DNA of 64,000 nucleotides from the NCBI GenBank assembly GCA_017463985.1, contig JAFUEH010000007.1:61245-125244 (forward strand), in the 5' to 3' direction. Under the pieces are notes generated by a model, which saw only the letters and a program-made list of their open reading frames with translations, ran no database searches and had not been told where the DNA came from. The stretch is from Eubacterium sp. Lineage in GTDB: Bacteria; Bacillota; Clostridia; Oscillospirales; Acutalibacteraceae. Numbering within the stretch: position 1 is the stretch's first letter; each line of letters begins with the position of its first letter. Positions 12,784 through 41,390 of the stretch are shown here, piece by piece. A program made the position numbers and the translations under genes.

Positions 12784-12873
12784 TTATTCCTGTACTTTAT
12801 CGTTTTTATTAACCGTCTGAGCCGTTTGCCCGGTCGGCTTTGCATCTTGCTTTGCTTGTAATGCTTCAAGTTT
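12751..12873 (-). repeat. Shared 3' gene end (tail plus terminator), copy with HipA-like 1
   Basis: These 123 bases are almost identical (three differences by eye) to 14162-14284. They encode the last ~30 residues of two unrelated proteins plus the terminator hairpin. Confidence 0.9.
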
Positions 12874-14088
12874 ATGACGCACCGACGGACGCTGATTCTT
12901 TTGAACGCTCTTGCGGATTTCACTTTCGAGATAGGCAAGTCTTACCGACAATCCTCTTACCAATTTTTCAATTCGTTCGGAAGAAGATTCTGTATATGGC
13001 TGATATTTTACGAGAATACGATGATATTCTTCAACCAAGCCGTTCAACGCCGTTGTATCAAAGCGGGACAGGTCAGGAATGGCTGCCAAATAAGTCGAAA
13101 AAGACTTGTTAGTATTACGAAACAGTTTTCCTTTACCGTCAGAAAAATGAATATCCTTTGTGAGCTGTCCGCAATTCATCGCTTCGCCGGTATCGAATAT
13201 CGGCGCCGTCCGTTTCCATTCCAGCGTTTCAACATTTCTGATAACACCGAAATTACGTAAATGACGGTCCGTATTCATTAAAACGGCATCCAGCAAAATC
13301 ATGTTTTCTACATTCCGGCGCGCATTTGGAACGTTGTGCTTTTCTAATATATTGATATAGTGTTGTATATCGCTTATATTGCCTTTTTTCTTTTCGGAAA
13401 CGAATATATCATTGGCAGTAATCATTTCTTCATCAGCAGCAACAAAAAGGTCACATTTTGACACCAAGCGTCCTCCCGAAATAGCAATACGATAAGGACA
13501 ATATTCAAAGCCCATTCGCCGGCAAAACGCAGAAGCCAGCCACTCGTTGATTGGTTCCTCTCGACTGGCTTCATAAGAACCCTTAACCAGCACTCTCTTA
13601 CCGTTTTCAATTATCCAGCCTTTTGGCAGCATACCGTCAATCGTGTTGTTAGGCGAATGCAAATCCGGTCTTTCCGTGCTGCTTTCTTTTGAACTGCTTA
13701 AAGACGCCTGAAGGTATCCTTCATACTGAAAGTCGTTATCAAAAAAGTTAATATCTTTCCATGCCACCGGACTATCATATTCTTTTATCCAATATTGATC
13801 AGAAAATGAAAGTGCATACGCCTTGTTTAGCAGTTCATCGGTGCTTTCCACGCCAAGCTGCTCCAACAGCTTTGTAAGCCCTTTACGATGCGAAGGAATA
13901 CCGCGTCCTTTAAACCAGTTGTTCAGCACTCTTAATTCACTCGCCGTACCGTCCTCTGCCGCTATTTTTACGGCCAAAGGAGCATAGTCGAGGTTGTACC
14001 ACTCATGAAATTTTGTCATCACATTCAGTTCTGTATCATAATCAATCGCAGCCACCGGTGTAGTTCTGTTCATCAGTAAAAATTGCAT
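12784..14088 (-). CDS. HipA-like Ser/Thr kinase, copy 1, with SVRxKLE tail
   Basis: The 434-residue protein has the HipA kinase catalytic loop (LMNTDRHLRNFG, near residue 270) and the metal-binding APIFDTG motif near residue 297. HipA kinases phosphorylate cell targets such as glutamyl-tRNA synthetase and arrest growth. No HipB-type antitoxin is adjacent, and the N-terminal part lacks an obvious HipA N1 domain. The last 33 residues begin SVRHKLEALQ and form a polar tail shared with other proteins of this element. The ATG at 14088 has a GGAG site 7-8 bases upstream. Copy 2 (22262-23566) has the same length. Confidence 0.82.
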   Translation of the reverse strand: MQFLLMNRTTPVAAIDYDTELNVMTKFHEWYNLDYAPLAVKIAAEDGTASELRVLNNWFKGRGIPSHRKGLTKLLEQLGVESTDELLNKAYALSFSDQYWIKEYDSPVAWKDINFFDNDFQYEGYLQASLSSSKESSTERPDLHSPNNTIDGMLPKGWIIENGKRVLVKGSYEASREEPINEWLASAFCRRMGFEYCPYRIAISGGRLVSKCDLFVAADEEMITANDIFVSEKKKGNISDIQHYINILEKHNVPNARRNVENMILLDAVLMNTDRHLRNFGVIRNVETLEWKRTAPIFDTGEAMNCGQLTKDIHFSDGKGKLFRNTNKSFSTYLAAIPDLSRFDTTALNGLVEEYHRILVKYQPYTESSSERIEKLVRGLSVRLAYLESEIRKSVQKNQRPSVRHKLEALQAKQDAKPTGQTAQTVNKNDKVQE

Positions 14089-14161
14089 GACCGTACTCCT
14101 TTCCGTAATACTGTACTTCAATAATATTATTTATGTAAAAGGTTGTCAACTACGGAAAAGG

Positions 14162-14194
14162 AAAAGCAGTAGGCTCAACCAGCCTACTGCTTTG
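14162..14194 (-). terminator. Hairpin terminator after nucleotidyltransferase 1
   Basis: The same perfect GCAGTAGGCT/AGCCTACTGC stem as at 12751 lies just after the stop of the nucleotidyltransferase and before the HipA-like gene. Confidence 0.8.
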
Positions 14195-14284
14195 TTATTC
14201 CTGTACTTTATCGTTTTTATTAACCGTCTGAGCCGTTTGCCCGGCCGGCTTTGCATCTTGCTTTGCTTGCAATGCTTCAAGCTT
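14162..14284 (-). repeat. Shared 3' gene end (tail plus terminator), copy with nucleotidyltransferase 1
   Basis: This is the partner of 12751-12873: 123 bases with three differences, encoding the last ~30 residues of the nucleotidyltransferase and its terminator. Confidence 0.9.
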
Positions 14285-15019
14285 CTTACGGAGGGATGAA
14301 GTATTGTTAGCGTCTCTTATTACCTCATTCACATTTTCTGATTTAAGGACACCCGGATATTTTTCCTCAAAGGCAAGCAAAAATGCTTTTGTTGAGGCTT
14401 CGCCGGACTTAGTTTGGTCAAACAATGAGAACAATTCTTTGCTTTCAACAATTTGTCTAAACTGTTCTTGAATTCCATTCGGAAACTTATCCCAGCTATT
14501 ATACAAATCATTTACAGCTTTATCGACCATATCATAAGTAATATCATTATGATTACGACGATGTTCAAGCAATATACCTATCACATCGGATAAGTCGTGT
14601 TTATATCGCCTGCCGGAACAAAGTTTCATAGCGATAAGATATTCCGCCCTGATGCTCCTCACATCCAGCACGCCATAAAATGTTTTGTAATACTCCGAAT
14701 ACTGAATCAGTTTGGGAGAGTACGAGGCTGTGTTTACAAAATCACTATTTAGCCAGTCAGCAGGCAAATTATTCATTTCTGCAACTTTTAAGATTGCTTC
14801 CTTAATGATTGACGATGGCGTCATTAGCGCGTCTACATCCAAAGTTTCGTTTCGGAAACTATAATTCTCAATAATCGCTGCGCCACCTATAAGAATAATT
14901 TCGATTCCTGGTGCCTTTCTTCCAGCCAGTTTACGATATGTTTTTGCAAACTCATAAAGGTAGTGATCAAGATTTGATTTATTAAACACCTTGATGTCGC
15001 CAGCGTTATTAACAGACAT
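14195..15019 (-). CDS. DUF6036-like nucleotidyltransferase, copy 1, with SLRKKLE tail
   Basis: The 274-residue protein has a nucleotidyltransferase-like core: IGGAAIIENYSFRNETLDVD (GG...D-x-D pattern) and a following EYLIAMKLCSGRRYKHDLSD helix typical of DUF6036/AbiEii-like proteins. Such enzymes may nucleotidylate tRNA or proteins. The last ~33 residues start SLRKKLEALQ and form the shared polar tail. I chose the ATG at 15019, which overlaps the stop of the upstream 136-residue gene by 11 bases; an AAGGTG site lies about 9 bases ahead. Coupling to the partner gene suggests a two-component toxin-antitoxin-like unit. Confidence 0.75.
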   Translation of the reverse strand: MSVNNAGDIKVFNKSNLDHYLYEFAKTYRKLAGRKAPGIEIILIGGAAIIENYSFRNETLDVDALMTPSSIIKEAILKVAEMNNLPADWLNSDFVNTASYSPKLIQYSEYYKTFYGVLDVRSIRAEYLIAMKLCSGRRYKHDLSDVIGILLEHRRNHNDITYDMVDKAVNDLYNSWDKFPNGIQEQFRQIVESKELFSLFDQTKSGEASTKAFLLAFEEKYPGVLKSENVNEVIRDANNTSSLRKKLEALQAKQDAKPAGQTAQTVNKNDKVQE

Positions 15020-15419
15020 CTCGTACATCACCTTCCACAATATTAAAATGCAAAAACTCCGGAATGGCGTTTTTTATAGCTTCGGCGCGAAAATCGCCGC
15101 AATCAGTAAAATCACTTAAAAGTAATATACTCAGAGGGTAAACCGGCTCTTCAAAACGATATTCCCGTAAATTATCATATTCATTGCATCGAGGTAAATC
15201 ATGAATTCTGCACAAATAATCCAACAGCGCCAATAGATACAGACTTTCTCTATACCAGCCTTTGTTGAAATAGTTGCGAATATTATGGTTGTCTAATAAA
15301 CTAAGCATAAAGTCAATATCGCCCATCGACTTCAACTGATGGCACACATTGCTTTTAAATTCTTCAAAAGAAGGCTTATCGTTAGTGTTGTTCTGCACCA
15401 GCACGCTTGTATCTGTCAT
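15009..15419 (-). CDS. Conserved 136-residue partner of the nucleotidyltransferase, copy 1
   Basis: I do not recognise a named family. The protein is mostly helical by composition, with a conserved core FEEFKSNVCHQLKSMGDIDF and NYFNKGWYRESLYLLALLDY. Its C-terminus FNIVEGDVRDVC overlaps the start of the nucleotidyltransferase in another frame. The start at 15419 has a textbook GGAGGTG site. The same gene pair with identical lengths and the same overlap occurs at 24491-24901, and a remnant of it lies near 27783. Constant pairing with a nucleotidyltransferase suggests an antitoxin or adaptor role (inference). Confidence 0.7.
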   Translation of the reverse strand: MTDTSVLVQNNTNDKPSFEEFKSNVCHQLKSMGDIDFMLSLLDNHNIRNYFNKGWYRESLYLLALLDYLCRIHDLPRCNEYDNLREYRFEEPVYPLSILLLSDFTDCGDFRAEAIKNAIPEFLHFNIVEGDVRDVC

Positions 15420-15466
15420 CGTCTCACCTCCGCTGAGAAATATCAATACGCCACTCTGCTATCTTA

Positions 15467-15495: not shown

Positions 15496-15496
15496 T

Positions 15497-15799: not shown

Positions 15800-15828
15800 C
15801 CTGAATACCTCCCTAAAGTAAAATATAA

Positions 15829-22261: not shown

Positions 22262-23566
22262 TTATTCTTGAACCACATCTGATTTCTTGACCGTCGTAAC
22301 CGTTTTTTCGGAAGTATCAGCCTTTTTCTGTGCCTGCAAAGTTTCGAGTTTATCGCGCACAGAAGGACGTTGATTCTTTTGAACGCTCTTGCGGACTTCA
22401 TTATTAAGATAGGTCAGCCTTACCGACAATCCTCTTGCCAGTTTTTCAATTCGTTCTAAAGAAGATTCCGTATACGGCTGATATTTCAATAACACGCTGC
22501 GATATTCTTCAACCAATCCTTCAAGTGCCGTTGTATCGAAGCGCGACAAATCAGATATTACAGATAAGTAGGAAGAAAAAGACTTACTTGTGTTGCTAAA
22601 CAGTTTTCCTTTACCGTCGGAGAAATGAATGTCCTTTGTGAGTTGCCCACAATTCATTGCTTCGCCGGTATCGAATATCGGCGCAGTTCTGACCCACTGA
22701 AGAGTCTCAACATTTCTGATAACGCCGAAATTACGCAAATGGCGGTCAGTATTCATCAAAACACCATCAAGCAATATCATGTTTTCAGTGTTTTCTCTTG
22801 CGTTAGGAACACTGTGCTTTTCTAAAATATTGATATAGTGTTGTATATCGCTTATATTGCCTCTTTTCTTTTCAGAAGCAAATATATCATTTGCCGTAAT
22901 AATCTCTTCATCAGAAGCAACAAATAAATCGCATTTTGATACAAGCCGTCCCCCGGATATATCAATACGATAAGGACAGTATTCAAAGCCCATGCGCCGG
23001 CAAAACTCAGATGCAAGCCACTCGTTAATTGGTTCCTCACGGCTCGCTTCATAAGAGCCTTTAACCAACACTCTCTTGCCATCTTCGATAATCCAACCTT
23101 TTTGTAACATACCGTCAGTAGTATTATTTGGTGAATGCAAATCCGGTCTTTCTGTGCTGCCTTCTTCCGAACTGCTCAAAGATACCTGAAGGTAGCCTTC
23201 ATAATTAAAATCATTGTCAAAAAAGTTAATATCTTTCCATTCTACCGGACTATCAAATTCCTTAATCCAGTATTGGTCAGAAAGAGAAAGCGCATACGCT
23301 TTATTGAGAAGTTCATCGGTACTCTCTACGCCAAGCTTATCAAGCATTTTTTCAAGGTCTTTACGCCACGAAGGAATGCCTCGCCCTTTAAACCAGTTAT
23401 TCAATACCCTTAATTCGCTTTCTGCGCGATTATTAACGGCGTTCTGTATTGATAAAGGAGCATAGTCAAGGTTATACAATTCATAGATTCTTGTAATGAC
23501 ATTCAATTCTGTATCATAATCAATGGCAGCCACTCTTTTATTTCTGTTCATCAGCAAGAATTTCAT
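22262..23566 (-). CDS. HipA-like Ser/Thr kinase, copy 2, with SVRDKLE tail
   Basis: This 434-residue protein is collinear with copy 1 and keeps the kinase loop LMNTDRHLRNFG and the APIFDTG motif. The tail starts SVRDKLETLQ and ends VVQE. The ATG at 23566 lies 8 bases after AAGGAG; an ATG 6 bases earlier is too close to the site. It is last in the leftward module and follows its own terminator, so expression may depend on read-through or on an unseen promoter. Its codons differ clearly from copy 1, so the duplication is not recent. Confidence 0.82.
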   Translation of the reverse strand: MKFLLMNRNKRVAAIDYDTELNVITRIYELYNLDYAPLSIQNAVNNRAESELRVLNNWFKGRGIPSWRKDLEKMLDKLGVESTDELLNKAYALSLSDQYWIKEFDSPVEWKDINFFDNDFNYEGYLQVSLSSSEEGSTERPDLHSPNNTTDGMLQKGWIIEDGKRVLVKGSYEASREEPINEWLASEFCRRMGFEYCPYRIDISGGRLVSKCDLFVASDEEIITANDIFASEKKRGNISDIQHYINILEKHSVPNARENTENMILLDGVLMNTDRHLRNFGVIRNVETLQWVRTAPIFDTGEAMNCGQLTKDIHFSDGKGKLFSNTSKSFSSYLSVISDLSRFDTTALEGLVEEYRSVLLKYQPYTESSLERIEKLARGLSVRLTYLNNEVRKSVQKNQRPSVRDKLETLQAQKKADTSEKTVTTVKKSDVVQE

Positions 23567-23643
23567 AACCATAACTCCTTTCAACTATTAGTGTAATTCA
23601 ATTATATTCTTTATTCAAAAAGTTGTCAACTCTGCAAAAATAT

Positions 23644-23673
23644 AAGCAGCAGGCTCATCGAGCCTGCTGCTTT
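23644..23673 (-). terminator. Hairpin terminator after nucleotidyltransferase 2
   Basis: AAGCAGCAGGCTC pairs with GAGCCTGCTGCTT across three bases. It is a co-varied version of the hairpins at 12751, 14162 and 22227: both arms changed together (GTAG to GCAG), which shows that the structure is selected. Confidence 0.8.
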
Positions 23674-23676
23674 CTA

Positions 23677-24501
23677 TTATTCTTGAACAATTTCTGACTT
23701 CTTGACCGTTGGAGGCTTTTTATCAGAACCATCTGCGCTATTCTTTGCCCGCAATGCTTCCAATTTCTCACGAACGGATGGGGTGTTATCGGCGGCACTT
23801 ATCACATCATTAACATTTTCTGATTTGAGCACTCCCGGGTATTTTTGCTCAAAAGCAAGCAGAAACTCTTTTGTTGAGGCTTCGCCGGACTTGGTTTTAT
23901 CAAACAATACGAACAAGTCATCATTTTCAACAATCTGTTTAAACTGTTCTTGAATTCCCTGTGGAAAATCGCCCCAGCCATTATATAAATCGGTTACGGC
24001 TCTATCCACCATTGTGTAAGTTATATCATTATGATTTCTCCTGTGTTCCAGCAAAACACCAATCACATCGGACAGGTCGTGTTTATATCTTCTGCCGGAA
24101 CATAGTTTCATTGCAACAAGGTATTCCGCTTTTACGGTTCTTACATCCAGAACCCCACAAAAGGTCTTGTAATATTCTGAATACTGCACCAGCTTTGGAG
24201 AATATGAAGCCGTATTGATAAAATCGCTATTAAGCCAATCGCGTGGCAAATCATTCATTTCTGCAACATTTATAATTGCTTCGTTAATGATTGACGAAGG
24301 CGGCAGCAACGCATCCACATCTAAAGTCTCGTTACGGAAACTATAGTTTTCAACAATGGCAGCGCCGCCAATCAAGATAATCTCTATTTTTGGCGCCTTT
24401 CTTCCAGCAAGTTTACGATATGCTTTTGCAAACTCAAAAAGGTAATGGTCAAGATTTGATTTATTAAACACCTTATTGTCGCCGGCATTATTAACAGACA
24501 T
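23677..24501 (-). CDS. DUF6036-like nucleotidyltransferase, copy 2, with SVREKLE tail
   Basis: The 274-residue protein is collinear and equal in length to copy 1, with IGGAAIVENYSFRNETLDVD and EYLVAMKLCSGRRYKHDLSD conserved. The tail begins SVREKLEALR and ends EIVQE. The start at 24501 overlaps the stop of the upstream 136-residue gene by 11 bases, exactly as in copy 1. Probable nucleotide transfer to tRNA or protein is a family inference; no target can be read from the sequence. Confidence 0.75.
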   Translation of the reverse strand: MSVNNAGDNKVFNKSNLDHYLFEFAKAYRKLAGRKAPKIEIILIGGAAIVENYSFRNETLDVDALLPPSSIINEAIINVAEMNDLPRDWLNSDFINTASYSPKLVQYSEYYKTFCGVLDVRTVKAEYLVAMKLCSGRRYKHDLSDVIGVLLEHRRNHNDITYTMVDRAVTDLYNGWGDFPQGIQEQFKQIVENDDLFVLFDKTKSGEASTKEFLLAFEQKYPGVLKSENVNDVISAADNTPSVREKLEALRAKNSADGSDKKPPTVKKSEIVQE

Positions 24502-24901
24502 CGCGCACATCACCTTCTACAATATTAAACTGCAAAAACTCCGGAATAGCATCCTTTATAGCTTCCGCCCGTAAATCGCTGTCATTTGTATAATTGCTTA
24601 TCAGTATTATACTCAAAGGGAAAATCGGCTTTTCAAAACGGTATGCCCGTAAATCATCGTATTCATTGCAACGAGGTAAATCGTGAATTCTGCACAAATA
24701 ATCCAACATCGCCAACAGATACAGGCTCTCTCTGTACAGGCCTTTGTTGAAGTAGTTGCGGATATTATGGTTGTCTAATAAACTTAGCATAAAGTCAATA
24801 TCGCCCATTGACTTCAACTGATGGCACACATTGCTCTTAAACTCCTCAAACGAATAATTCTCGGAAGTATCATTCTGCACCAGCGCACTTGTATCTGTCA
24901 T
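24491..24901 (-). CDS. Conserved 136-residue partner of the nucleotidyltransferase, copy 2
   Basis: It is the same length as copy 1 and nearly the same through FEEFKSNVCHQLKSMGDIDF and the RIHDLPRCNEYDDLRAYRFE region. GGAGGTGA lies 5 bases before the ATG. It follows the XRE regulator by 29 bases and is coupled to the nucleotidyltransferase, giving a regulator, partner and enzyme order. Function is unknown; a neutralising or adaptor role is inferred from constant pairing. Confidence 0.7.
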   Translation of the reverse strand: MTDTSALVQNDTSENYSFEEFKSNVCHQLKSMGDIDFMLSLLDNHNIRNYFNKGLYRESLYLLAMLDYLCRIHDLPRCNEYDDLRAYRFEKPIFPLSIILISNYTNDSDLRAEAIKDAIPEFLQFNIVEGDVRDVC

Positions 24902-24930
24902 AGTCTCACCTCCATTTATGAAGACTCAAT

Positions 24931-25365
24931 TCAAAGATATTTATTTCGCAAATAATTCGCTTGTGTAGATGTTATCAGTTGTTCAACTTCTGCTACATTG
25001 ATGCTCGATTGCAAGTCGCAATAATCGCAATCCCATTGGAGATATTCCTCTCCGCGTTCCAGCCTTAGTAAAGTGTCCTTCATTTTATCTAAGGATTCCT
25101 GCAAAAACAAAGGGAGTCCTTTTTCTAAATAAGAAAGGTCGCGTGGCAAACCCGTTACAGGGTCGGTAAAAGTAGCCAACTCCATCAACTCTTCCATTGT
25201 GATGTTGAGCGTCTTTGCTAAAAGTTGTACTGTTTTAGCGTTACATTTTTCTATATCGCTTTTGCCTGAGCACAAATCCATCACAGTCGATTTTGGCACA
25301 CCGCTTTTCTTGGATAACTGGTACATACTGATATGATTATTAGTTAAAAACTGCTGTAAAGTCAT
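24931..25365 (-). CDS. XRE-family transcriptional regulator
   Basis: The 144-residue protein has an N-terminal XRE helix-turn-helix (MYQLSKKSGVPKSTVMDLCS, residues 14-33) and an acidic C-terminal extension. It lies at the head of the partner-nucleotidyltransferase operon, directly behind a consensus promoter whose -10 box overlaps a 12-bp palindrome, so autorepression is likely. A GAGGTG site precedes the ATG. The first module copy has lost this gene. Confidence 0.85.
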   Translation of the reverse strand: MTLQQFLTNNHISMYQLSKKSGVPKSTVMDLCSGKSDIEKCNAKTVQLLAKTLNITMEELMELATFTDPVTGLPRDLSYLEKGLPLFLQESLDKMKDTLLRLERGEEYLQWDCDYCDLQSSINVAEVEQLITSTQANYLRNKYL

Positions 25366-25383
25366 ATAATCACCTCGGCACCT

Positions 25384-25412
25384 ATTATACCGGTATACCG
25401 ACCGAATGTCAA
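25384..25412 (-). promoter_or_regulatory. Consensus promoter with overlapping palindromic operator
   Basis: On the minus strand TTGACA (25412-25407) and TATAAT (25389-25384) are 17 bases apart. The palindrome TATACCGGTATA (25386-25397) and the overlapping CGGTATACCG (25391-25400) cover the -10 box and spacer, an ideal site for a repressor such as the XRE protein encoded just downstream. Confidence 0.85.
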
Positions 25413-25414
25413 TA

Positions 25415-26077
25415 TTATGGATACACTATCCCCTCTCCTGCAACTTTTGCTATATTTAATACAGTGTTTTTATTATACATATTATTGGCGAACATCAACA
25501 GATGCCTATAATCCAGTCCACGGTCATCAATATATTTCCCAATGATATAAAACGGGTTATCTACATCAATTGGCGCTTTGTTTAATAGTTCTAAAGCATC
25601 GAGAGTCTGAAGATACACCTTATTATCCTTTGTAACTTGTGTTTTTGGAGGCTTAACAACCACATCAAGTTCGATATCCTTTCGTGCTGCGCTTCCGGCA
25701 ACGTTAGAAACAATCAACTCATTATTAGGCATTTGAGAGGTCAATCCCATTTGATGCAGTAAAGACAACCCCGACACATAACCGTTATCGTGAGAAATAT
25801 ATTTATCATAAACCAGCCTATGCTTGTCAATCGACAATTCACCAAAAGGAGTAATCTGCGTTAAATAATAAACTCCTTTCTTGTGTAATCGCAAGTTCGG
25901 AATGAGACCTCTTTCGATGATTCGTTTTAAAGCCACAGAAACAGCGCCAGCAGCCTGCTGACGGCTGATATCATAATGAAGTGCAAAATCAGCTGTTAGT
26001 TTTTTTGAATAAATTGGTACGCAGTATTTATAATTCCTTATTAGTTCTCCAAGGTATTCAATATAAGTTCTATTCAT
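25415..26077 (-). CDS. AbiEi-like winged-helix protein, copy 2
   Basis: The 220-residue protein is collinear with copy 1 (IYSKKLTADFALHYDISRQQ, IIERGLIPNLRLHKKGVYYL). The ATG at 26077 has AGGTG 7 bases upstream and overlaps the stop of the short AbiEii-like gene (ATGA), so the two are translated together. That coupling supports an antitoxin or regulator role in an AbiE-like pair. The C-terminus ends IAKVAGEGIVYP and carries no SVRxKLE tail. Confidence 0.75.
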   Translation of the reverse strand: MNRTYIEYLGELIRNYKYCVPIYSKKLTADFALHYDISRQQAAGAVSVALKRIIERGLIPNLRLHKKGVYYLTQITPFGELSIDKHRLVYDKYISHDNGYVSGLSLLHQMGLTSQMPNNELIVSNVAGSAARKDIELDVVVKPPKTQVTKDNKVYLQTLDALELLNKAPIDVDNPFYIIGKYIDDRGLDYRHLLMFANNMYNKNTVLNIAKVAGEGIVYP

Positions 26078-26349
26078 ACAATCACCTGAACCCCATCTAA
26101 CAAACAATGAAGAGTTCCATCGTGCATATAGTTCGTGACTTTCAATTCACCAATTTTGCTTAATTCTTCAATCAGCAAATCTGTGTTAAATTCAGAAGGG
26201 GTAAAAAAGTCAAAATCGAATGATTCTCGGTAACCAGTTTGAAGCGAGAGTGCCGTCCCTCCAGCCATATAATAATCCGTAACCGAAATATTTTTTGAAA
26301 TCTTGCCTAATACTTCAAACCTATTGTTGTCAATTACTTCCCAGTGCAT
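26074..26349 (-). CDS. Short AbiEii/AbiGii-type nucleotidyltransferase
   Basis: The 91-residue protein contains the nucleotidyltransferase entry motif of AbiEii toxins (AGGTALSLQTGYRESFDFDF, with GG and D-x-D) but stops at LLDGVQVIV, where full-length members (250-300 residues) continue into a helical domain. It is either a truncated toxin or a minimal nucleotidyltransferase (MNT-like). Its stop overlaps the AbiEi start and its start lies one base after the DUF6922 stop, so the three genes form one tight operon. Preserved spacing argues against random decay. Confidence 0.65.
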   Translation of the reverse strand: MHWEVIDNNRFEVLGKISKNISVTDYYMAGGTALSLQTGYRESFDFDFFTPSEFNTDLLIEELSKIGELKVTNYMHDGTLHCLLDGVQVIV

Positions 26350-26350
26350 A

Positions 26351-26647
26351 TTAGCCCTCATAAACATAATTCATTGAGTGTATATTTCTGTAATACGCCA
26401 TATCCTCTTTATTTAATTTGTACTTAAGACGAAGATAATTTGCTACAATCGGGATAAAGCCTCTTGCTGTCCTGGCAACTGATTTAATGTCATCTACCGA
26501 ATAGGTTTTCTCCAGCCATTCAATCTGCTGGAAATCTCCTTCATTATAAAGGCGGACAATAATATATGACATATTTGCTCGTATATCAAGCACCTCAAAT
26601 TGTGTATCCCAAAAGTATGGTTTAAATTCGAGCGGAATATTGTTCAT
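26351..26647 (-). CDS. DUF6922-like protein
   Basis: This 98-residue protein has the aromatic-rich LEFKPYFWDTQFEVLDIRAN start and a helical segment EWLEKTYSVDDIKSVARTAR, as in DUF6922 proteins that commonly precede AbiEii-type nucleotidyltransferases. The ATG at 26647 follows GGGGTG by 7 bases. Function is unknown; the fixed neighbourhood suggests a regulator or accessory part of the nucleotidyltransferase system. Confidence 0.6.
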   Translation of the reverse strand: MNNIPLEFKPYFWDTQFEVLDIRANMSYIIVRLYNEGDFQQIEWLEKTYSVDDIKSVARTARGFIPIVANYLRLKYKLNKEDMAYYRNIHSMNYVYEG

Positions 26648-26817
26648 CAATATCACCCCAATTACATAGAAGATTTTTTGTACATTTTATTATATCATAT
26701 TCTTAATAAAATTACAAACAGTCTATTAGATTAAAGCACGTTATATATGCTCTAAAATTGAATCGTCCGATTATTCATAAAAAAACAGTTGTCCCCCATC
26801 AGAGACTACTGCTTTTA

Positions 26818-26865
26818 TTATTCTTGAACAATATTTCTTTTATTGACAGTCGAAATCGGTTTTTT
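26818..26865 (-). pseudogene. Out-of-frame shared tail downstream of fic copy 2
   Basis: In the frame one base off from Fic, these bases encode KPISTVNKRNIVQE and a stop, matching the end of the shared tail (TVNKNDKVQE, TVKKSEIVQE). The frames meet at an A6 run on the minus strand (26865-26860). The Fic gene therefore sits in front of a tail it no longer reads, or reads only by frameshifting. Confidence 0.6.
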
Positions 26866-27616: not shown

Positions 27617-27730
27617 TGCTATCTCTCCTTTAATGTTGTTAGTTGCATTATAACACAAAAACACTAAAACTGATACAGTATTTTTAAAAACAGGTTTATT
27701 GTTCACGGACTATCACTCATATATAGTTAT

Positions 27731-33720: not shown

Positions 33721-35529
33721 CTATTCTTCTGATTTTGCATAAGCGGCTATAATATCTGCACCGGTAACAGCACCTTCTTCAAACCCATCGAGGTCGCCAT
33801 AAGTACCGTCATCGAAATACAGTGGCTTAACTGTAGCTTTTGCGTATTCGTGTTCAAGTTTTGAATGGTCGAATTTGCCCAGGGCAACAGCCATTAAAAA
33901 CGCTTTCATTTTTGCTGTATCAATCATAGAATCCATAATTGGCTTTTCACCTTGAACAACAAGTATTGCGTGCTTCTTTTTGAGCAATCTGACTTCTTCC
34001 GGCGTCATCAGTTCACGACCGGACAACTGGTCATTTTTAGTATAATTACCATTCCGTCCTCTGCTTCGTCCGAAGGAGTTGGTGTAAATGGTTTCTTTAC
34101 CGAGCATTTTGCTCACATATTCGTGTGTGCTCTGCTCCATACCTCCCATATATAGGAATATCGAACATTGGGCGGTGATTGCTTCCCACGCTTCCTTGTA
34201 GTCCTTCTTAATTTGTGCAAAGCCCTGAAGGATAACGCTGATACCGATATTACGGCTACGGCAAGTCGCAATTATTTGGTCAAAGTCATCCGGCAGCGCA
34301 ATATTTGCAAACTCATCCATATAAATCTGAACATGGTGAGGCAGCCTGTCTCCGTCAAATTCCTCTGCACGGTCATACAGCTGTTGAAATAACTGCATAT
34401 ATAAAACCGAGCAAATAAAGTTTTTGGATTTATCATCATCCGGCAACAACAAAAACAGCGCTGTCTTTTTATCTGCAAGTTCGCGTAGATGCAGTTCATC
34501 GAACTCTGACATTTGCTTGATAGAACTCAGAGAATACTTACCAATTTTCGCAACCAGCGTTGATACAACGCTCATTGCCGTTCTTCCTTTTGCCTGGCGA
34601 AATTTCAGATAGTAGTCAACGGCAATATTATGCGGTTCCTCCGCCTGTAATTCTAAAAAGATTTCATCGAAAGGACTGATATAATTCAAATCATCGTCCC
34701 GTATCTCGAGGAAGTTTATCATTTCAAGAACGAAAGGCAAATTCTGCTCATTCTTCGGTGCCCTATAATAGAGGTAATAACAACAAGCCAAAAATAAAAA
34801 TTTGGCATTGTCATCGAAGAACGGCTCCTGCGTGGTACTGTTCTTTGGCGTGTTTGCCGCGAAAATCAATTCGACCATCTTAAATATATCATCCTCATTA
34901 CGGATATACTCAAACGGATTATATCCCCACGAATACTCCGGGTCTTTTAAATCAAGAACACGTACCGTATAGCCGAGTTTCTTTAACAGTTTCCCGGACG
35001 TCCGAAGCGTTGAACCTTTTGGGTCACAAACGACAAAGCTCCCGATACCGTTAATAACATTCGCTAATACATAGCGGAAAGTCTTACCAGTACCGGGACC
35101 ACCTACAAGTATCATATTCTCGTTCAGACCTGTTTTTCTGTCGTCAAAACTGATACGAACATTCTTTGTCAACAGATGATTGTTTAATGGCGGTTTTTCT
35201 GCGTATTCCTTTGTCAGGTAACGACAACTGCCCCACTCTGCGGAGCCGTGTTCTTCTCCAAAGCGGTAATTACGAACAGATGCCACAAGGACAATCAAGG
35301 CGACAGCCGAAATGCCGAAAGCATACAAAAGATATGTAGGCGAATGCTGCGGATTCCACACAAACTTCAACGGCGCTGATTTTATATCATTGCTCAAGGC
35401 AGTTAAAACATCAAGGAAGCCTCCCGCATCTGCAAGCGGCGCCAGTTTTAATGCAAGATAGAATGACATTACTGTAATGATGGCAGCATATGTCAAATAT
35501 GTCCTTAATATTCGTTTTTTACCTGTCAT
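33721..35529 (-). CDS. virD4: VirD4/TraG-type coupling protein
   Basis: The coupling ATPase brings the relaxase-DNA complex and secreted proteins to the channel. The 602-residue protein has two N-terminal helices, Walker A GGPGTGKTFRY near residue 146, the DPKGSTLRTSG motif, and Walker B IYMDEFANI near residue 404. The ATG at 35529 follows GAGG by 5 bases, and the upstream gene ends 2 bases earlier. If the shared SVRxKLE tails are export signals, this is the protein expected to read them. Confidence 0.94.
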   Translation of the reverse strand: MTGKKRILRTYLTYAAIITVMSFYLALKLAPLADAGGFLDVLTALSNDIKSAPLKFVWNPQHSPTYLLYAFGISAVALIVLVASVRNYRFGEEHGSAEWGSCRYLTKEYAEKPPLNNHLLTKNVRISFDDRKTGLNENMILVGGPGTGKTFRYVLANVINGIGSFVVCDPKGSTLRTSGKLLKKLGYTVRVLDLKDPEYSWGYNPFEYIRNEDDIFKMVELIFAANTPKNSTTQEPFFDDNAKFLFLACCYYLYYRAPKNEQNLPFVLEMINFLEIRDDDLNYISPFDEIFLELQAEEPHNIAVDYYLKFRQAKGRTAMSVVSTLVAKIGKYSLSSIKQMSEFDELHLRELADKKTALFLLLPDDDKSKNFICSVLYMQLFQQLYDRAEEFDGDRLPHHVQIYMDEFANIALPDDFDQIIATCRSRNIGISVILQGFAQIKKDYKEAWEAITAQCSIFLYMGGMEQSTHEYVSKMLGKETIYTNSFGRSRGRNGNYTKNDQLSGRELMTPEEVRLLKKKHAILVVQGEKPIMDSMIDTAKMKAFLMAVALGKFDHSKLEHEYAKATVKPLYFDDGTYGDLDGFEEGAVTGADIIAAYAKSEE

Positions 35530-35531
35530 AA

Positions 35532-36728
35532 TCACCTCACCGTATCTTGATATACGCCTATTGACTTTGTTGTATCGTCAACCGTTTTCTGATAGTTCTT
35601 CAGAACAGCCTCAAGGTTCTTGTACATCTTTTCATGAATAACTTTTTCAATTTCAGTTATCTCATAAAACTTCTTTTTGATGCGCGTAGTGTCGTAATTC
35701 ATATAGTCAGACGGTATATCGTCAAAATCGAATGTGGAACAGTCAATGTTATAGCGTTTAGATAGTAAATACGCAATACACTTCGCATCAAATTGATATG
35801 CCGTTAAGTTGTTTTTAAAATCAACACCTCTGTCGAGCATTGCCATTGCGACAGCTGTACTGAAATGGATAAAGTATTCTGCTGCGGACAGTCCCTTCCG
35901 AACAGCAATCTTCTTTTGGTCGGGAAAATACTTTGCTTTAATGAAGGGCGGCCAGTCGCCGTCATTGTTTTCAGGGATATAGTTTTCATATTTTACCGGC
36001 GAGGTCATCGTAAGCGCAGCCACCAAAGCGTGTGAAGCATACGTTGTAATTTTGCGTTCTCTTGCCGGCGCTGTCGTCTGCGCCACATCGAAGTATTTTA
36101 CAGCGTTTCGATAATAGCCTTTCTTTCCATCTGCTTTTGTATATTCCTTGCCACGCTTGATAATATAAAAGCCATGCTGTCCCCGTTTAAACTGAAATCC
36201 CTGCTTGCTCCAATCCGCAACCGGCTGAATGTCCGTCGCATTAGGCTGTTGGGCATAAATCAGCAGCGCATTGGTGACACCGAGTTCCTTAAAACGGGAA
36301 TACACATCCAACACCTTGAATAACTCCGCAGATGAGCTTGAACGTGTGAACACCTTTTCCGCTGTTTCATCAAGCAGTTTGTATGTGGCGTTCAGCTCTG
36401 CTTTTTTCTTCTCGGCATACGACTTTTTTCCGTCCGTTTCTTCCGAGACTTTTGGTGTTGAGAGTGTTTCGTTTTTAACGGGTTCAACCACTCTGGTATT
36501 GCCGAGGTCGAGTTCAAAGTCTCGTTCTGCAAGATACGCCGAAAGGAAATTCAGAATACTTTGCAAAGAAGAATCGCTCATTGCATATACGGAATTGTTA
36601 TTCAGAAGCATTCCGTACTGCTCGGATTTCTTTGCAACCTCAATACGGTCCTCGCCGCATATAACGAAATATGATGTATCCGGCATTGCCTGAAACAGCG
36701 ACTTAAAATTCACATCTTTTAATTTCAA
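35532..36728 (-). CDS. Protein with ArdC-like (antirestriction) N-terminal-type domain
   Basis: The 398-residue protein contains a segment resembling the ArdC ssDNA-binding domain: the QPNATDIQPVADW stretch, then FKRGQHGFYIIKRGKEY, then NAVKYFDVAQTT. ArdC-like proteins protect incoming DNA. The rest is unassigned. The start is a TTG at 36728 with GGAGGTG ahead, since no ATG is suitably placed. It lies between VirD4 and a run of LPD-type proteins. The antirestriction role is inferred. Confidence 0.65.
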   Translation of the reverse strand: MKLKDVNFKSLFQAMPDTSYFVICGEDRIEVAKKSEQYGMLLNNNSVYAMSDSSLQSILNFLSAYLAERDFELDLGNTRVVEPVKNETLSTPKVSEETDGKKSYAEKKKAELNATYKLLDETAEKVFTRSSSSAELFKVLDVYSRFKELGVTNALLIYAQQPNATDIQPVADWSKQGFQFKRGQHGFYIIKRGKEYTKADGKKGYYRNAVKYFDVAQTTAPARERKITTYASHALVAALTMTSPVKYENYIPENNDGDWPPFIKAKYFPDQKKIAVRKGLSAAEYFIHFSTAVAMAMLDRGVDFKNNLTAYQFDAKCIAYLLSKRYNIDCSTFDFDDIPSDYMNYDTTRIKKKFYEITEIEKVIHEKMYKNLEAVLKNYQKTVDDTTKSIGVYQDTVR

Positions 36729-36741
36729 AAAATCACCTCCG

Positions 36742-37416
36742 CTATCTTGAATAATTATCGGTGCTTGGCGGTGCAATCATACCGTCAAGGTTGTCCTTCT
36801 TCGGCGCCGGTTCACCGACTTTTCTGATGGAAGGCTGCTCTGATGAAACATTATGGGCAGCTTTTTTACTTTCAAGGCGTCCGCGCACGCTTCCAGATTC
36901 TCTGTCACTTGATAAGACCGATTCTTTTTGTTCTTCGTTGGTTATAAGTTCATCAACATCAAAACCGAGACCAGCAATTTCATCAAGTGTCATACCCAAA
37001 TGTTCTGTCAAAACCTTGTACAAATCACCCGGGTCTGTGTGTTCATCAATGTACCCAAGCGCAGCATCTAAAATTGCCGCTGAACGCTCAGGAGCATTAC
37101 TGATTTCACGACCGATAACCTGAATTGGCACAGAATCCTGTAAATATGCCAGGACATCAAAAGTCGGGAGCTTTGAAATTTCAAATGCCACATCTACAAT
37201 TTGGCATTGATAAGCCCCTGATATGAACGGAGTGCCTCCGGTCTCGCGTATCGCCGCATCTTCTTTCATAATGTCCGCTTTCATTTTCTCAACGCTCTCA
37301 TCCGAAAAGTTCTCACTTCCGGCTTCATATAAATATGAAATCGCACTCTTGAAAGTAAAATCGCCATAGTCATTTTGTATTTTACGAAGAGCTTTCATAG
37401 TATCAGGATAACTCAT
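36742..37416 (-). CDS. Unknown ICE protein with internal SVRGRLE motif
   Basis: I do not recognise the fold of this 224-residue protein. The central part is acidic and helical (AAILDAALGYIDEHTDPGDL). About 50 residues from the end it has SVRGRLESKKAAH, the shared motif, then a polar tail with a second SIRKVGE stretch. The ATG at 37416 has AGGAGGG 7 bases ahead. The genes on either side are spaced by about 10 bases, so it belongs to the same operon. Confidence 0.6.
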   Translation of the reverse strand: MSYPDTMKALRKIQNDYGDFTFKSAISYLYEAGSENFSDESVEKMKADIMKEDAAIRETGGTPFISGAYQCQIVDVAFEISKLPTFDVLAYLQDSVPIQVIGREISNAPERSAAILDAALGYIDEHTDPGDLYKVLTEHLGMTLDEIAGLGFDVDELITNEEQKESVLSSDRESGSVRGRLESKKAAHNVSSEQPSIRKVGEPAPKKDNLDGMIAPPSTDNYSR

Positions 37417-37426
37417 ATACACCCTC

Positions 37427-38467
37427 CTATCTGATATAAGGATTTGTCTGGCTACGGCCGGTGCCGGTAGCACCGCCATCATCGGTACTTTGTTCAGCAG
37501 CACCACTCAAGCGTTGCTTGTTCGGATTTCGGGATGCGTTCTTGGAAAACTCGCCCTGCTCAGTGTAATTCCGTGGGTCAGCCTCTGGACTGTCCCATCC
37601 TTTCTTAACACCAGCCTCCATTGCCGCAACCTGTTGATTGGTTAAGCCAAGTTCATTATTTAATTCTTTGGTTTTAAACTGTCTGTAAAAAGCAGGGCAA
37701 TCCTCTACATCGGCTTTTACAAATTCGCTATTACCGTGTTCGGCAATATAAATTGTGTTATCGCTCTCGGAATAGTAATACGCGATATCCGGCAATGAAT
37801 CACGGAACGGTATCACCGTATTGCCGTTTCGCTCCATATTCTCTGCAAACTGGCATATATGGTAAACTCTGTTTCCGATATATGTGTGGTACTCATCAAT
37901 AAATCTACACACCAGCGGATTGTGTTCGCCTGTCGAATATGTAATTCTTATACTATCCCCATCCGCTATCTCAAACAACGGCGTATAACGCGAATCAATA
38001 AAACGAATACCTTTTTCCGCGTTATGAAGATGACGGTTAAAACATTCTCTGTCATACGCAAACACATAGTAGTCGTAGTCACCCTGAAGGTACGGCTCCA
38101 TACGGATAATGTAAGTATTCTTATCCGTATCCACACGGAAGGCATATTCTGAGCCGAAGTTTCCCTCAATCTGCGCGTGTCTCCAGTAGGAACAGAAGTT
38201 CCGCATAGCATTACGGCTATGGAACGGTCTCCGTAAAGAAGTATCGGATTCCAAAGCATCCATAAGCGCCTCAACATCAGCGCGAACAGTATCACTCATC
38301 CGTTCTGAAGAATTCCCCTCCCACATTGAGTGATACTCGTTACCGCTGCGACCAAAATCGCCGTGATAATAACCATAGAACATTGTCCTGGAGGCGATGT
38401 CCTGCGGTTGTCGGTATGCATAAAGCACTTCGGCACCCGTTAAAGGTTTGAATATATAATCTGCCAT
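37427..38467 (-). CDS. LPD-type ICE protein (unknown function)
   Basis: The 346-residue protein has a large aromatic-rich N-terminal part (YGYYHGDFGRSGNEYHSMWE) and a segment NELGLTNQQVAAMEAGVKKG followed by WDSPEADPRNY. That pattern recurs in large polyvalent-protein-type (LPD) proteins of gut ICEs. Its C-terminus has only a loose version of the shared tail (SRNPNKQRLSGAAEQ). AAGGAG precedes the ATG. Such proteins are thought to act early in the recipient; this is a family-level guess. Confidence 0.6.
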   Translation of the reverse strand: MADYIFKPLTGAEVLYAYRQPQDIASRTMFYGYYHGDFGRSGNEYHSMWEGNSSERMSDTVRADVEALMDALESDTSLRRPFHSRNAMRNFCSYWRHAQIEGNFGSEYAFRVDTDKNTYIIRMEPYLQGDYDYYVFAYDRECFNRHLHNAEKGIRFIDSRYTPLFEIADGDSIRITYSTGEHNPLVCRFIDEYHTYIGNRVYHICQFAENMERNGNTVIPFRDSLPDIAYYYSESDNTIYIAEHGNSEFVKADVEDCPAFYRQFKTKELNNELGLTNQQVAAMEAGVKKGWDSPEADPRNYTEQGEFSKNASRNPNKQRLSGAAEQSTDDGGATGTGRSQTNPYIR

Positions 38468-38486
38468 AGTATCTCTCCTTATTTGC

Positions 38487-39488
38487 TTATCTATTTCCTC
38501 TATGCTTTGTCATCGTCCCCGGAGCGCCAAAAATGGTTTTATCCTCGGTGTCATTGTGTGGTTCACTCTTTTCCTCCAGGCGCTCACGAACACTCTGACG
38601 GCTTTCATTCTGCCCACCAACAATCGAACTCAACATTTTTTCACGCGTCTCCGGTGACATTACAGCGCCGGATGTTTCCATATCGTGCGCGGCTGCTTCT
38701 TTTATTGCAGACGATAAGACTGTATCAAAAGTTCTGTCGGAACGGGCGCCAAGCATTCGATGCTCGTAATTATCAATATCTGATAGTGACAGCCATTCCG
38801 GCTTCTCGCCTTCCGGCAAACTATTCCATAAGCCACGCATAAAATATATGTGGCTATGTATATTGCCGGCCCACAAGAACTTATCCTGTGCGCCTCCGTT
38901 TCCAAGATAATAATCACAATCAGAACGCAACCGGTCGAGCAACTGATAACGAAATGACATATCCCCGGAAGATAGCAATCCTTGCATTCTTTCGGCGTCG
39001 TTACCAAACGCCTGAATGGTGTCCCTTAAATGGAATGTCTGACCATCCGTGGTCAACCCCTTCCAGGTGCCGCGCGTATGATTGATGCCGTTAAGGAACT
39101 TAATACCTTCGCCACCGTATGCCTTCCATTCAAGAAGGTTCTGCGTGTAATCATCAATCAGAACATCATCGTGCTCGATGGGAGAGTAATGCTCTTTCAG
39201 ATAAGCAGCCTTATTTTCGCCGTATGGCAGCAGTATTGTCTTTTCGGCGGTCAGTTCCGGAATATACTCATTCAGCCAATCGAGCTTTTCCTGATAAGCA
39301 TAGTCGCTTTCAGTAAGATAGGCAGAAAGGATATAAACATCTTCACCGTTTCGGATCAGCTCTCTTACCTCGCCCACAAGATTTGCATTTGGTTCAAGAT
39401 TTCGATAATATCCTTTCTCAAACAGTTGCTCGAATTCAACATTATTCCACTTCGCCAAAGTGCCATCCATATCAACAAATATTCTCAA
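38487..39488 (-). CDS. HAD 5'-nucleotidase-like domain fused to LPD11, with SVRERLE tail
   Basis: The 333-residue protein starts with a HAD phosphatase domain (FVDMDGTLAKW, then LSAYL and DDYTQNLLEW motifs) of the 5'(3')-deoxyribonucleotidase type. It continues with an LPD11-like domain (FRYQLLDRLRSDCDYYLGNG, then WLSLSDIDNYEHRM). The tail begins SVRERLEEKSE. The TTG start overlaps the previous stop (TTGA) and follows GGAGGTGG. It may hydrolyse nucleotides in the recipient; the substrate is unknown. Confidence 0.75.
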   Translation of the reverse strand: MRIFVDMDGTLAKWNNVEFEQLFEKGYYRNLEPNANLVGEVRELIRNGEDVYILSAYLTESDYAYQEKLDWLNEYIPELTAEKTILLPYGENKAAYLKEHYSPIEHDDVLIDDYTQNLLEWKAYGGEGIKFLNGINHTRGTWKGLTTDGQTFHLRDTIQAFGNDAERMQGLLSSGDMSFRYQLLDRLRSDCDYYLGNGGAQDKFLWAGNIHSHIYFMRGLWNSLPEGEKPEWLSLSDIDNYEHRMLGARSDRTFDTVLSSAIKEAAAHDMETSGAVMSPETREKMLSSIVGGQNESRQSVRERLEEKSEPHNDTEDKTIFGAPGTMTKHRGNR

Positions 39489-39907
39489 AGTTCCACCTCC
39501 ATATCTGTATTTCCGCGACCATATTCATTCGGTTCAAGAGCACTATGGTGATTCTTGAATGATTGCAATTTATCACGGATGCTTAATGGTGTTGTGCTTC
39601 TTTCTTGTACAGGGGCATTCGCAATGGATTTTGAGTTGCGGATAAGGGTTTCTGTCTTTTGAGCACTGAGACTTTCATCATAGGAATAAATCTCAAAACC
39701 ATATTCTGCAAGTTCTGTGTATTCATCCCCGTTATTAGCTGTCTGACACCAGGAAACAACGTCTTCTGTAAGGTACTCTGCTGCTTCCTGCGCCACACCA
39801 ATATCAATTAGCTTTGCTGTAATATACCCTGCAATATCCTCTGCTTCACTATTCGCTGCGCAGAAGCCTGAAGGATTATTGCCTTTTGTATAGATTATAT
39901 CAACCAT
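39485..39907 (-). CDS. Unknown ICE protein with SIRDKLQ tail
   Basis: The 140-residue protein has a Trp/Tyr-containing N-terminal region (GYITAKLIDIGVAQEAAEYL and a following DVVSWCQTA) and a C-terminal part beginning SIRDKLQSFKNHH, another version of the shared tail, ending DMEVEL. AGGTG lies 7-8 bases before the ATG at 39907. No domain is recognised. Its stop overlaps the HAD gene start, so production of the two is coupled. Confidence 0.6.
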   Translation of the reverse strand: MVDIIYTKGNNPSGFCAANSEAEDIAGYITAKLIDIGVAQEAAEYLTEDVVSWCQTANNGDEYTELAEYGFEIYSYDESLSAQKTETLIRNSKSIANAPVQERSTTPLSIRDKLQSFKNHHSALEPNEYGRGNTDMEVEL

Positions 39908-39917
39908 ACACAGCACC

Positions 39918-41390
39918 TCACTGGACAAATTGCTGTTTAGCCTTTTCAGCAGTCTTAGCAGCAACCTGTTCCACCGGTTGTTCAGCCGCACTGGTAATGG
40001 CATTGCGTTCCCGTTTAGCCTCCAGCTTTGTTCTTACACTGTCACCTTTTTCCATGTGCTTCAAACACGCTTCATACGCTCGGGTTGCAACTTTTTCCGG
40101 CTCCGGCATCCCTTCGGCGTTCTTCTCGATAAACTGAAAATATTTATCTTTCAGTTCCTGAACCGTCTGCGGCATTTCAGTTATGCCGAGTGTCTGAAAA
40201 CATTCGGGAAGCTCAGCAGGTTTTTGTGAAGGCTGTTTTGACGTTCCCCAAGGAACTGTTGATAACCGCTTTCCCAGGGGTGTTGTGCTCTGCTGTTTCT
40301 CTTTATTCTTATTAAAAAACGAAACAGCAGCTTCGTAAGCAACGGAACCAACCTTGTCAACATCAATAATGCTGCCATTTTTTCCTTTAAAGTTCTTAAA
40401 CGCATTCTTAATATCATCAAGGCTTTTTGGCGCTTCTGTTATACCGAGAACCTGATAACACTCAGGGAGAGCATTGTCCGGTGAAATGGTTGTGAATTCA
40501 GGTTTATGAGGCTGTATTTTACCGTCGATAATTTTACTTCCCTGCTCATAAAGAGATGTATAGTAATTCGGTTCACTGATATCGATGTTATTCTTCTCAA
40601 CGAAATCTTTATATGCAGCCTCATACTCTGCTTGTGTTGGCATTTCGGTAAATCCGAATTGTTCAAAGCACATTAGCTCATTGTCACCAATTTCCAAATG
40701 CTCCTTGCTGCTCTCTTTGTCGGAGCCCTGCAAGTTTTTCTCGGATGCTCGCTCTTGCTTGCTTTTCACCTCCTCGTAAGCGATTACCTCTGGGGGGCGC
40801 TCAACCTCTACGCCGTTTTCCTGCAGGAATTTTTCCACTTCATCAAGTGGCGTCGCTTCTTGTTCGGTTCCGACAGTCTGTTCAGGAACCGGCTGCTGCC
40901 GGACCTGTGCCGGGTTATATGTATCAAACATTTCAAGAATGTGCGCCATACGCACCTCATCAGAAGCACGATACGAAATCGACACCATTTCACTGTAATC
41001 ATCAGAGAAGTTAATTATTTGGTCGAGGTCTTTATCCTTGCTTGTAAAAAACTTCTTGCTTTTGCGTAATTCATCGCCGTTCTGTACGGAGAAAAATGAA
41101 ACGCCGAGTTGCTTTGCAATTGTTGAAAAATTGTTGAGGTCTGATTTGTTCAACCAAACAGCGTGTATCTCTTCCCCGCTTTTCATTATCTTTTCAAAGG
41201 TTTCCTCGCCGCCAGTCAATTTCTCCTTGCGTTCTCTTTTCTGCGCAATCTTTTTAGCAAGTACATAATAAGTTACGCCGAGAGCCTTTGCACCATAGCC
41301 TGCGATTTGCAAAGCCAGTTTTGCTCCATCAACCATAACGGTTGTGCCAAGTCTGAAAACAGCACCTACAACCTCGTCTTCGATTGCCAT
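39918..41390 (-). CDS. pcfB: PcfB-like (DUF3801) protein with three J-domain-like repeats and SVRTKLE tail
   Basis: PcfB-type proteins work with the coupling protein in Gram-positive conjugation. The N-terminal ~140 residues match DUF3801/PcfB (the EDEVVGAVFRLGTTVMVDGA start and the KSDLNNFSTIAKQLGVSFF core). Three repeats follow, each of the form CFQTLGITEMPQTVQELKDK plus AYEACLKHM. They resemble DnaJ J-domains in spacing but lack the HPD tripeptide. The tail begins SVRTKLEAKRE. At 490 residues it is far longer than plain PcfB (about 150). It overlaps the relaxase gene by 25 bases. Confidence 0.75.
   Translation of the reverse strand: MAIEDEVVGAVFRLGTTVMVDGAKLALQIAGYGAKALGVTYYVLAKKIAQKRERKEKLTGGEETFEKIMKSGEEIHAVWLNKSDLNNFSTIAKQLGVSFFSVQNGDELRKSKKFFTSKDKDLDQIINFSDDYSEMVSISYRASDEVRMAHILEMFDTYNPAQVRQQPVPEQTVGTEQEATPLDEVEKFLQENGVEVERPPEVIAYEEVKSKQERASEKNLQGSDKESSKEHLEIGDNELMCFEQFGFTEMPTQAEYEAAYKDFVEKNNIDISEPNYYTSLYEQGSKIIDGKIQPHKPEFTTISPDNALPECYQVLGITEAPKSLDDIKNAFKNFKGKNGSIIDVDKVGSVAYEAAVSFFNKNKEKQQSTTPLGKRLSTVPWGTSKQPSQKPAELPECFQTLGITEMPQTVQELKDKYFQFIEKNAEGMPEPEKVATRAYEACLKHMEKGDSVRTKLEAKRERNAITSAAEQPVEQVAAKTAEKAKQQFVQ

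Follow-up and report, generated by a model that had tools for sequence, protein, structure and literature searches.

A polar C-terminal tail on unrelated proteins of a clostridial integrative and conjugative element is a candidate docking and export signal

We analyzed a stretch of 64,000 nucleotides from Eubacterium sp. (contig JAFUEH010000007.1, positions 61,245 to 125,244; order Oscillospirales), called the window throughout, that holds an integrative and conjugative element (ICE) with a VirD4 coupling protein and a PcfB-like protein. A first-pass annotation had named eight ICE proteins that end in S-(V/I/L)-R-x-(K/R)-L-(E/Q) followed by polar residues, and had proposed that VirD4/PcfB reads this tail and sends the proteins into the recipient along with the DNA. 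We scanned all six frames of the window with the pattern S[VIL]R.[KR]L[EQ] and recovered all eight. There were nine matches; eight were C-terminal in open minus-strand genes, with 25-42 residues between motif and stop codon, and the ninth was interrupted by an internal stop. By a composition filter, the tails were polar. When a profile of the eight was run against the whole 2.58-Mb genome (E values up to 10), it found the same eight genes at E <= 7e-13 and, beyond them, just one weak match (E 0.7).

The carriers belong to six families: HipA_C, DUF6036, NT5C-LPD11, DUF3801/PcfB, and two unknown families. These six are unrelated, as had been claimed. However, there are not eight independent kinds, since HipA-like 1 and 2 (82% identical) and nucleotidyltransferases (NT) 1 and 2 (78% identical) are pairs of paralogues. 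Two sizes also changed: read from the first possible start, the open reading frames (ORFs) given as 224 and 140 amino acids are 254 and 172. The PcfB assignment rests on a match to PF12687 (DUF3801; 33.2 bits, cut-off 24.1). A predicted structure of this protein has a helix (residues 452-470) that begins at the motif (451-457), but the mean predicted local distance difference test score is 56.9. At 490 amino acids it is long, most other PcfB proteins that we read being ~160-400, and by eye it has three LPEC..LGITE..-like repeats between DUF3801 and the tail. None of the eight tailed proteins of the window had a Pfam match to DUF4316 (PF14195) or to a folded C-terminal domain of the XVIPCD or BID type. 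The motif matches did not include the relaxase, VirD4, or VirB4 of the window, nor its two Fic proteins (9402, 26840), which have no tail. The VirD4 (33721) and PcfB genes are not adjacent, lying four to six kb apart.

Table 1. Tailed genes and related features of the window
Feature	Gene	Tail or feature	Strand	Details
HipA-like 1	12784-14121	12784..12885	(-)	SVRHKLE + 26 residues; HipA_C
NT1, DUF6036	14195-15040	14195..14296	(-)	SLRKKLE + 26
HipA-like 2	22262-23584	22262..22363	(-)	SVRDKLE + 26; HipA_C
NT2, DUF6036	23677-24513	23677..23778	(-)	SVREKLE + 26
254-aa ORF	36742-37506	36742..36891	(-)	SVRGRLE + 42; no Pfam match
NT5C/HAD-LPD11 protein	38487-39488	38487..38594	(-)	SVRERLE + 28
172-aa ORF, unknown family	39485-40003	39485..39583	(-)	SIRDKLQ + 25
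PcfB-like, DUF3801	39918-41390	39918..40040	(-)	SVRTKLE + 33
Inverted repeat, then T-run, 3' of HipA-like 1		12751..12783	(-)	part of one copied DNA cassette that includes the tail
Matching inverted repeat and T-run 3' of NT1		14162-14194
VirD4 coupling protein, CD1115 family		33721..35535	(-)	no tail; NF045973, 415 bits
Relaxase (MobA/VirD2-like)		41366..42850	(-)	no tail; PF03432

The tails of the HipA-like and NT genes resemble each other as DNA. HipA-like 1 and NT1 share 124 of 129 nt (96%) at their 3' ends, a stretch that covers the tail, the stop codon, and the inverted repeat with its T-run; HipA-like 2 and NT2 share 107 of 142 nt. These tails have thus, in part, moved between unrelated neighbors as a DNA cassette. 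This raises the alternative that the tail has no function of its own and consists of gene ends spread by recombination, as cassettes of tail and terminator, or is a by-product of ribosome-binding sites that overlap stop codons. The 129-nt cassette fits the first version, and the final ER or LEV of many tails, which look like codons overlapping a Shine-Dalgarno sequence, fits the second; we set these recurring ends aside as probable overlaps of this kind. However, the PcfB, 172-aa, HAD-LPD11, and 254-aa tails had no DNA similarity with the HipA/NT tails or with one another at the score threshold used, the helix motif lies at least 12 residues before the stop and so clear of such overlap, and carriage of the tail tracks protein family. 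We therefore consider a functionless tail very unlikely.

Relatives of these two families rarely have the tail elsewhere. For HipA, 53 matches were listed, the window's own genome accounting for five, and none of the 28 relatives read outside the window, many of them distant (27-37% identity), had the tail pattern. One of the 12 NT relatives read did (L264, SIKERL). The C-terminus of one HipA relative, L282 in locus L306, resembles the tail, with IPLAQRMETARAEAEKHN, and its neighbor ends in VPLDEQIRIGREKMKAQN. This pair (L306:4253-6961) has an alternative tail, [IV]PL..[QR][MI] then polar residues, and no PcfB or VirD4 was found near it in the 14 kb read. The window also holds a remnant of a third HipA-like C-terminus (11017-11154; 67% identity, one internal stop), which ends before the tail.

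The tail is not peculiar to this ICE. In clostridial elements with CD1115-family VirD4 and PcfB, it also ends PcfB/DUF3801, ArdA, and ArdC/YodL/LPD proteins. Outside the window we defined it loosely, as S-[VIL]-[RK]-x-x-L then polar residues; the near-strict window pattern gave C-terminal copies at only one other CD1115 locus, L038. PcfB proteins of other CD1115 elements have a C-terminal PSV[RK]EKL-like motif and then a polar tail, and the PcfB relatives in L072 and L073 have SIREKLK. At both of these loci the gene after PcfB ends in SVRKKLQ or SVRQKLQ, comparable to the 172-aa ORF of the window; in L038, on the same contig as L073, that gene encodes an AAA_28 protein. PSVRAKL-like peptides near PcfB tails were discarded as out-of-frame coincidences. 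With PcfB ends added and a cut-off of E <= 0.1, the profile matched 66 of the 394 genomes of the order, among them the window's own, and many of the top matches were PcfB. Other carriers were a 623-aa ArdA-DUF3846-DUF4316 protein; its 201-aa partner, which has no Pfam match and is matched by a purpose-built ArdA profile; a 1117-aa LPD34-ArdA-ArdC-M78-YodL-LPD26-DUF4316 protein; and DUF6674, ArdC-M78-DUF3849, stand-alone LPD34, DUF3846, and MutS_I proteins. These are chiefly antirestriction and polyvalent proteins, a class that would be expected to work in the recipient. In L134, the DUF6674 protein has SVKENLNRYKA and the adjoining PcfB SVKEKLDRYKA. One locus, L188, has an LPD34 protein, an unknown protein, two ArdA proteins, and a DUF3846 protein within 12.6 kb, each with its own version of the tail.

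We then counted tails among 1850 genes with distinct ends from 109 element loci and among 389 genes from 20 control stretches. The pattern PS[IVL][RKM]..[LM] lay 12-65 residues from the stop in 47 of the 1850 element genes, where its internal density (~0.0006 per gene) predicts ~1, and in none of the 389 control genes. Without the leading proline, S[IVL][RKM]..[LM] was found in 97 element genes (~22 expected) and five control genes. With a polar-tail filter, 50 of 1023 genes in loci chosen by ArdA had it (at most 10.2 expected), as did 9 of 145 in loci chosen by relaxase (3.1 expected), 15 of 369 in loci chosen by the tail (4.3 expected), and 2 of the 389 controls (4.6 expected). The tail is thus not equally common in non-mobile DNA: the control stretches stayed at background, and the C-termini of VirD4/PcfB-type elements were enriched.

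Carriage was concentrated in a few gene clusters, labeled here from representative members. The tail was on 24 of 25 PcfB proteins (long cluster, 13/14; short cluster, 11/11), 31 of 47 ArdA proteins, 7 of 8 polyvalent proteins, all 11 members of a 368-aa family (one matching MutS_I), and five ArdC-M78-DUF3849 members in a mixed cluster of 22. Clusters of machine parts were free of it: relaxase, 0/46; VirB4, 0/36; C40 peptidase, 0/31; topoisomerase 3, 0/28; VirB6/TrbL, 0/24. So were ParB-like (0/21), recombinase (0/17), and CD1107-like (0/18) clusters. A single match among 49 VirD4 proteins, PIMDEM, is unlike the tail, and two among 21 Toprim/DUF3991 proteins look internal. Six other clusters of at least six members had one match each, chance-like except in one.

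ArdA served as a test case. It occurred in 54 of the 394 genomes, with 125 matches listed. We took 60 stretches, mostly around the best-scoring matches, together with other stretches, which gave 80 ORFs with distinct ends. When VirD4 or PcfB lay in the stretch, ArdA had the tail in 20 of 22 cases by the loose definition and in 10 of 22 by the strict one. In other loci, 40 of 46 had it (strict, 38/46); of the six without, one (L229) ends in PSIQAQL, outside the pattern, and those of L193, L221, and L225 are seemingly cut or frame-shifted. None of the three ArdA proteins in Tn916-like loci had it by either definition; FtsK/SpoIIIE proteins were present in all three of these loci and Rep_trans in two. 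In loci of phage type, a label of our own based on ORF length and lack of VirD4/PcfB, or in which no type IV secretion system (T4SS) was seen, one of nine had the loose form and none the strict. Where both proteins were present (19 loci), PcfB and ArdA tails were more alike within a locus than when shuffled (p 0.0001; p = 0.006 for nine dereplicated loci) in a permutation test that ignores the relatedness of elements. Matched pairs include SILGQL with SILGAL and IREQL with IREQM.

These observations bear on two further alternatives. The tail might hold its carriers to a partner on the transferred strand, such as the relaxosome or DNA-bound PcfB, and so have a role after entry instead of serving export. 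Most carriers are DNA-protection proteins, as such a tether would predict. Yet the kinase-like, NT, and nucleotidase-like proteins of the window are tailed as well, and the ArdA proteins of Tn916-like loci are not; we consider this tether distinctly improbable. The tail could also be a degradation tag that makes toxic or protective enzymes short-lived in donor or recipient, given that it is C-terminal, polar, and found on potentially growth-modulating enzymes. However, its extreme C-terminus is variable (VQE, NR, VEL, ER, LEV), we know of no degron that these ends resemble, and carriage is bound to element type. A degradation tag is hardly credible.

Tails were also present in named elements. 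Twenty proteins were examined from the pMG2200 vanB element, which we take to be Tn1549-like (57 annotated features in the stretch), and three had the tail: PcfB with SIRKVL, the YodL polyvalent protein with SIRAQL, and a protein of 314 aa with SIRKQL. In pMM35_01 of Vescimonas fastidiosa (27 proteins examined, 55 features), PcfB, DUF3849, MutS-like, and ArdA proteins had it; a fifth match, in a second relaxase, is chance-like. Plasmids of the pCF10 type have an F-type version, F[EDK]E[RK]L or [TNK]-F-[ED]-[EA]-[RK]-L, a pattern written after examples had been seen. On pCF10 itself, PcfB has TFDERL and an ArdC-like protein, presumably PcfD, has KFEERL. The F-type motif was also on PcfB, a 512-aa protein, and ArdC of Enterococcus gilvus pCR1C, on PcfB and a 1606-aa LPD1 protein of pEFM61-3, and on PcfB and a 256-aa protein of another Enterococcus faecalis plasmid. 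There were nine matches in 131 ORFs (five loci on four plasmids, two of the loci overlapping), all C-terminal; 1383 clostridial element genes gave six internal matches and no C-terminal one, and the 389 control genes gave none. It was not found at C-termini in the Lactococcus and Lacticaseibacillus paracasei stretches. A Lactococcus ArdC has a C-terminal TMKERI version, the ArdC of a pLLA22B-type Lactococcus plasmid ends in TMKERIDKAKTK then a polar tail, and PcfB of an L. paracasei plasmid has TLQEKIEKAK, for which no partner was seen among the seven proteins listed.

The carrier pattern, the lack of the tail on machine parts and on Tn916-like ArdA, and the element-specific versions are together consistent with a signal whose reader is specific to PcfB/VirD4 elements. 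We think it rather likely that conjugation machines with CD1115-type VirD4 and PcfB use the tail as a C-terminal signal for docking and export. Because such carriers should have their task in the recipient, export through VirD4/PcfB is the simplest reading. A polar linker would be followed by an amphipathic helix, which is short and has the form S-[VI]-[RK]-x-[KRQ]-L in ICEs of clostridia and the F-type form in pCF10-type plasmids, and then by the polar tail. The VirD4/PcfB coupling complex of the same element would recognize the helix, and the tagged proteins would reach the recipient with or ahead of the DNA strand. The cargo would be antirestriction ArdA/ArdC and polyvalent proteins, to which this ICE would add its HipA-like kinases, its DUF6036 nucleotidyltransferases, and its nucleotidase-like protein. 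PcfB might be exported itself or be anchored to VirD4 through the same site. The chances are about even for a broader proposition: a general Gram-positive conjugation tag, a short C-terminal helix through which systems with PcfB and CD1115-type VirD4 (gut ICEs, Tn1549-like elements, pCF10) inject antirestriction and growth-controlling proteins, which co-evolves with the receptor of each element, and which new cargo can gain as a small DNA cassette.

Several observations do not fit well with export. Relaxases cross into the recipient, and they lack the tail, while PcfB, presumed to be a machine part and our proposed receptor, is the steadiest carrier. This leaves room for a donor-side tether: by binding VirD4 or PcfB, or by letting PcfB bind itself, the tail would collect its carriers where transfer takes place and would not export them, and antirestriction proteins might then act on outgoing DNA or wait at the pore. 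Tails specific to element type would need merely a common partner. However, ArdA and ArdC would have no obvious task in a donor whose DNA is already modified, and the counted machine parts have no tail, so that we regard this tether as unlikely. Other points weigh on the evidence itself. The motif is short, the patterns were loosened or tuned after PcfB ends and other examples had been read, and loci L128-L147 were selected through the tail profile. Loci chosen by VirD4 were barely over background (6 of 334 genes with the polar-tail filter, at most 4.3 expected), in part because several PcfB tails there are SVL, SIL, or SLL versions. ArdA beside PcfB often had only the loose pattern, and two ArdA proteins beside VirD4/PcfB had no tail at all (L207, L236). 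As the HipA/NT tails of the window spread by DNA copying, their likeness is not independent. The NT relative in L074 has no tail, nor has one in contig G240:C90, although a tailed PcfB is on the same contig.

Around the tailed genes, a cargo set of Fic, AbiEi-like, HipA-like, and DUF6036 NT genes and the ~140-aa partner of the NT is seemingly duplicated (9402-15446 and 22262-27706), in different order. PADLOC labeled the genes at 10281 and 25415 as AbiEi and gave the DUF6036 proteins no defence label. The gene for the ~140-aa protein (15009-15446; 24491-24901) overlaps the start of each window NT gene, and a similar protein end, IPEFxxxNIVExEVRNV, precedes NT relatives in L074, L306, and L307. 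This suggests a conserved pair, perhaps a toxin-antitoxin system. Beside the ICE lies a cell-surface block (53890-63988) in which, by eye, we recognized proteins with choline-binding-like repeats, one of them resembling a metallo-hydrolase, as well as a sortase-like protein and pilin-like proteins. A relaxase search of viral_contigs found no relative.

Among the titles and abstract openings that our searches of the open-licence PMC literature listed, we found no published description of the tail, and no papers on DUF4316. Pfam has separate entries for DUF3801 and DUF4316, each a domain of unknown function. We checked one example of each, DUF3801 in L140 and DUF4316 in the ArdA protein of L130, and in both the domain takes in the motif, at or close to its C-terminal end; the DUF4316 match in the L128 protein of 1117 aa stops before the tail. 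According to a 2025 review, the known functions of Gram-positive T4SSs are almost all limited to DNA translocation, with the Streptococcus suis 89K system as the sole reported protein exporter, and effector delivery by these systems is described there as a question of long standing (PMC12857230). The tail offers a specific, testable signal for that question in well-studied elements, namely pCF10 with its PcfB and ArdC-like protein and Tn1549-like elements, and a route to listing candidate injected proteins of gut ICEs. If true, export would account for how ArdA and ArdC could shield DNA before gene expression begins in the recipient.

In Xanthomonadales (XVIPCD) and Bartonella (BID), one C-terminal module recurs across many unrelated T4SS substrates and is recognized by VirD4. 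XVIPCD and BID belong to Gram-negative systems and are folded domains of greater length, whereas the tail here is a short motif and a polar stretch. The Ser/Thr kinase CtkA of Helicobacter pylori is HipA-like. The H. pylori tfs3 ICE is the closest precedent: its CtkA, PZ39, and Fic proteins have their last 25 residues in common, and deletion of the CtkA tail or inactivation of the T4SS abolished the effect on host cells (PMC5536186). As in the clostridial elements, unrelated ICE proteins, one of them a Ser/Thr kinase, have a common polar C-terminal tail, which in tfs3 is predicted to be disordered. Unlike the clostridial tail, that of tfs3 belongs to a Gram-negative system, has a KRRR bias and a proline at -5, and acts on eukaryotic cells; the paper reports that CtkA needs it for its effect and does not show direct secretion. 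Iyer et al. (2017) proposed that polyvalent proteins are carried into recipients along with DNA; the ArdA, ArdC, YodL, and LPD proteins of Tn1549-like elements treated there are our carrier kinds, the available parts of the text describe no common C-terminal signal, and 'DUF4316', 'PcfB', and 'VirD4' occur 0 times in the main text (PMC5512222). The S. suis 89K T4SS, which exports SspA-1 according to the review, is likewise a Gram-positive system with VirD4 and a reported exporter of protein; it differs in secreting one protease to the medium, and the available part mentions no common tail (PMC12857230). Finally, the conjugation machine of the F plasmid pED208 sends several element-encoded proteins to the recipient, as proposed here, with the differences that it is Gram-negative, that the proteins are other ones, and that no such common tail was found in the available parts of the two reports (PMC8406263, PMC11288057).

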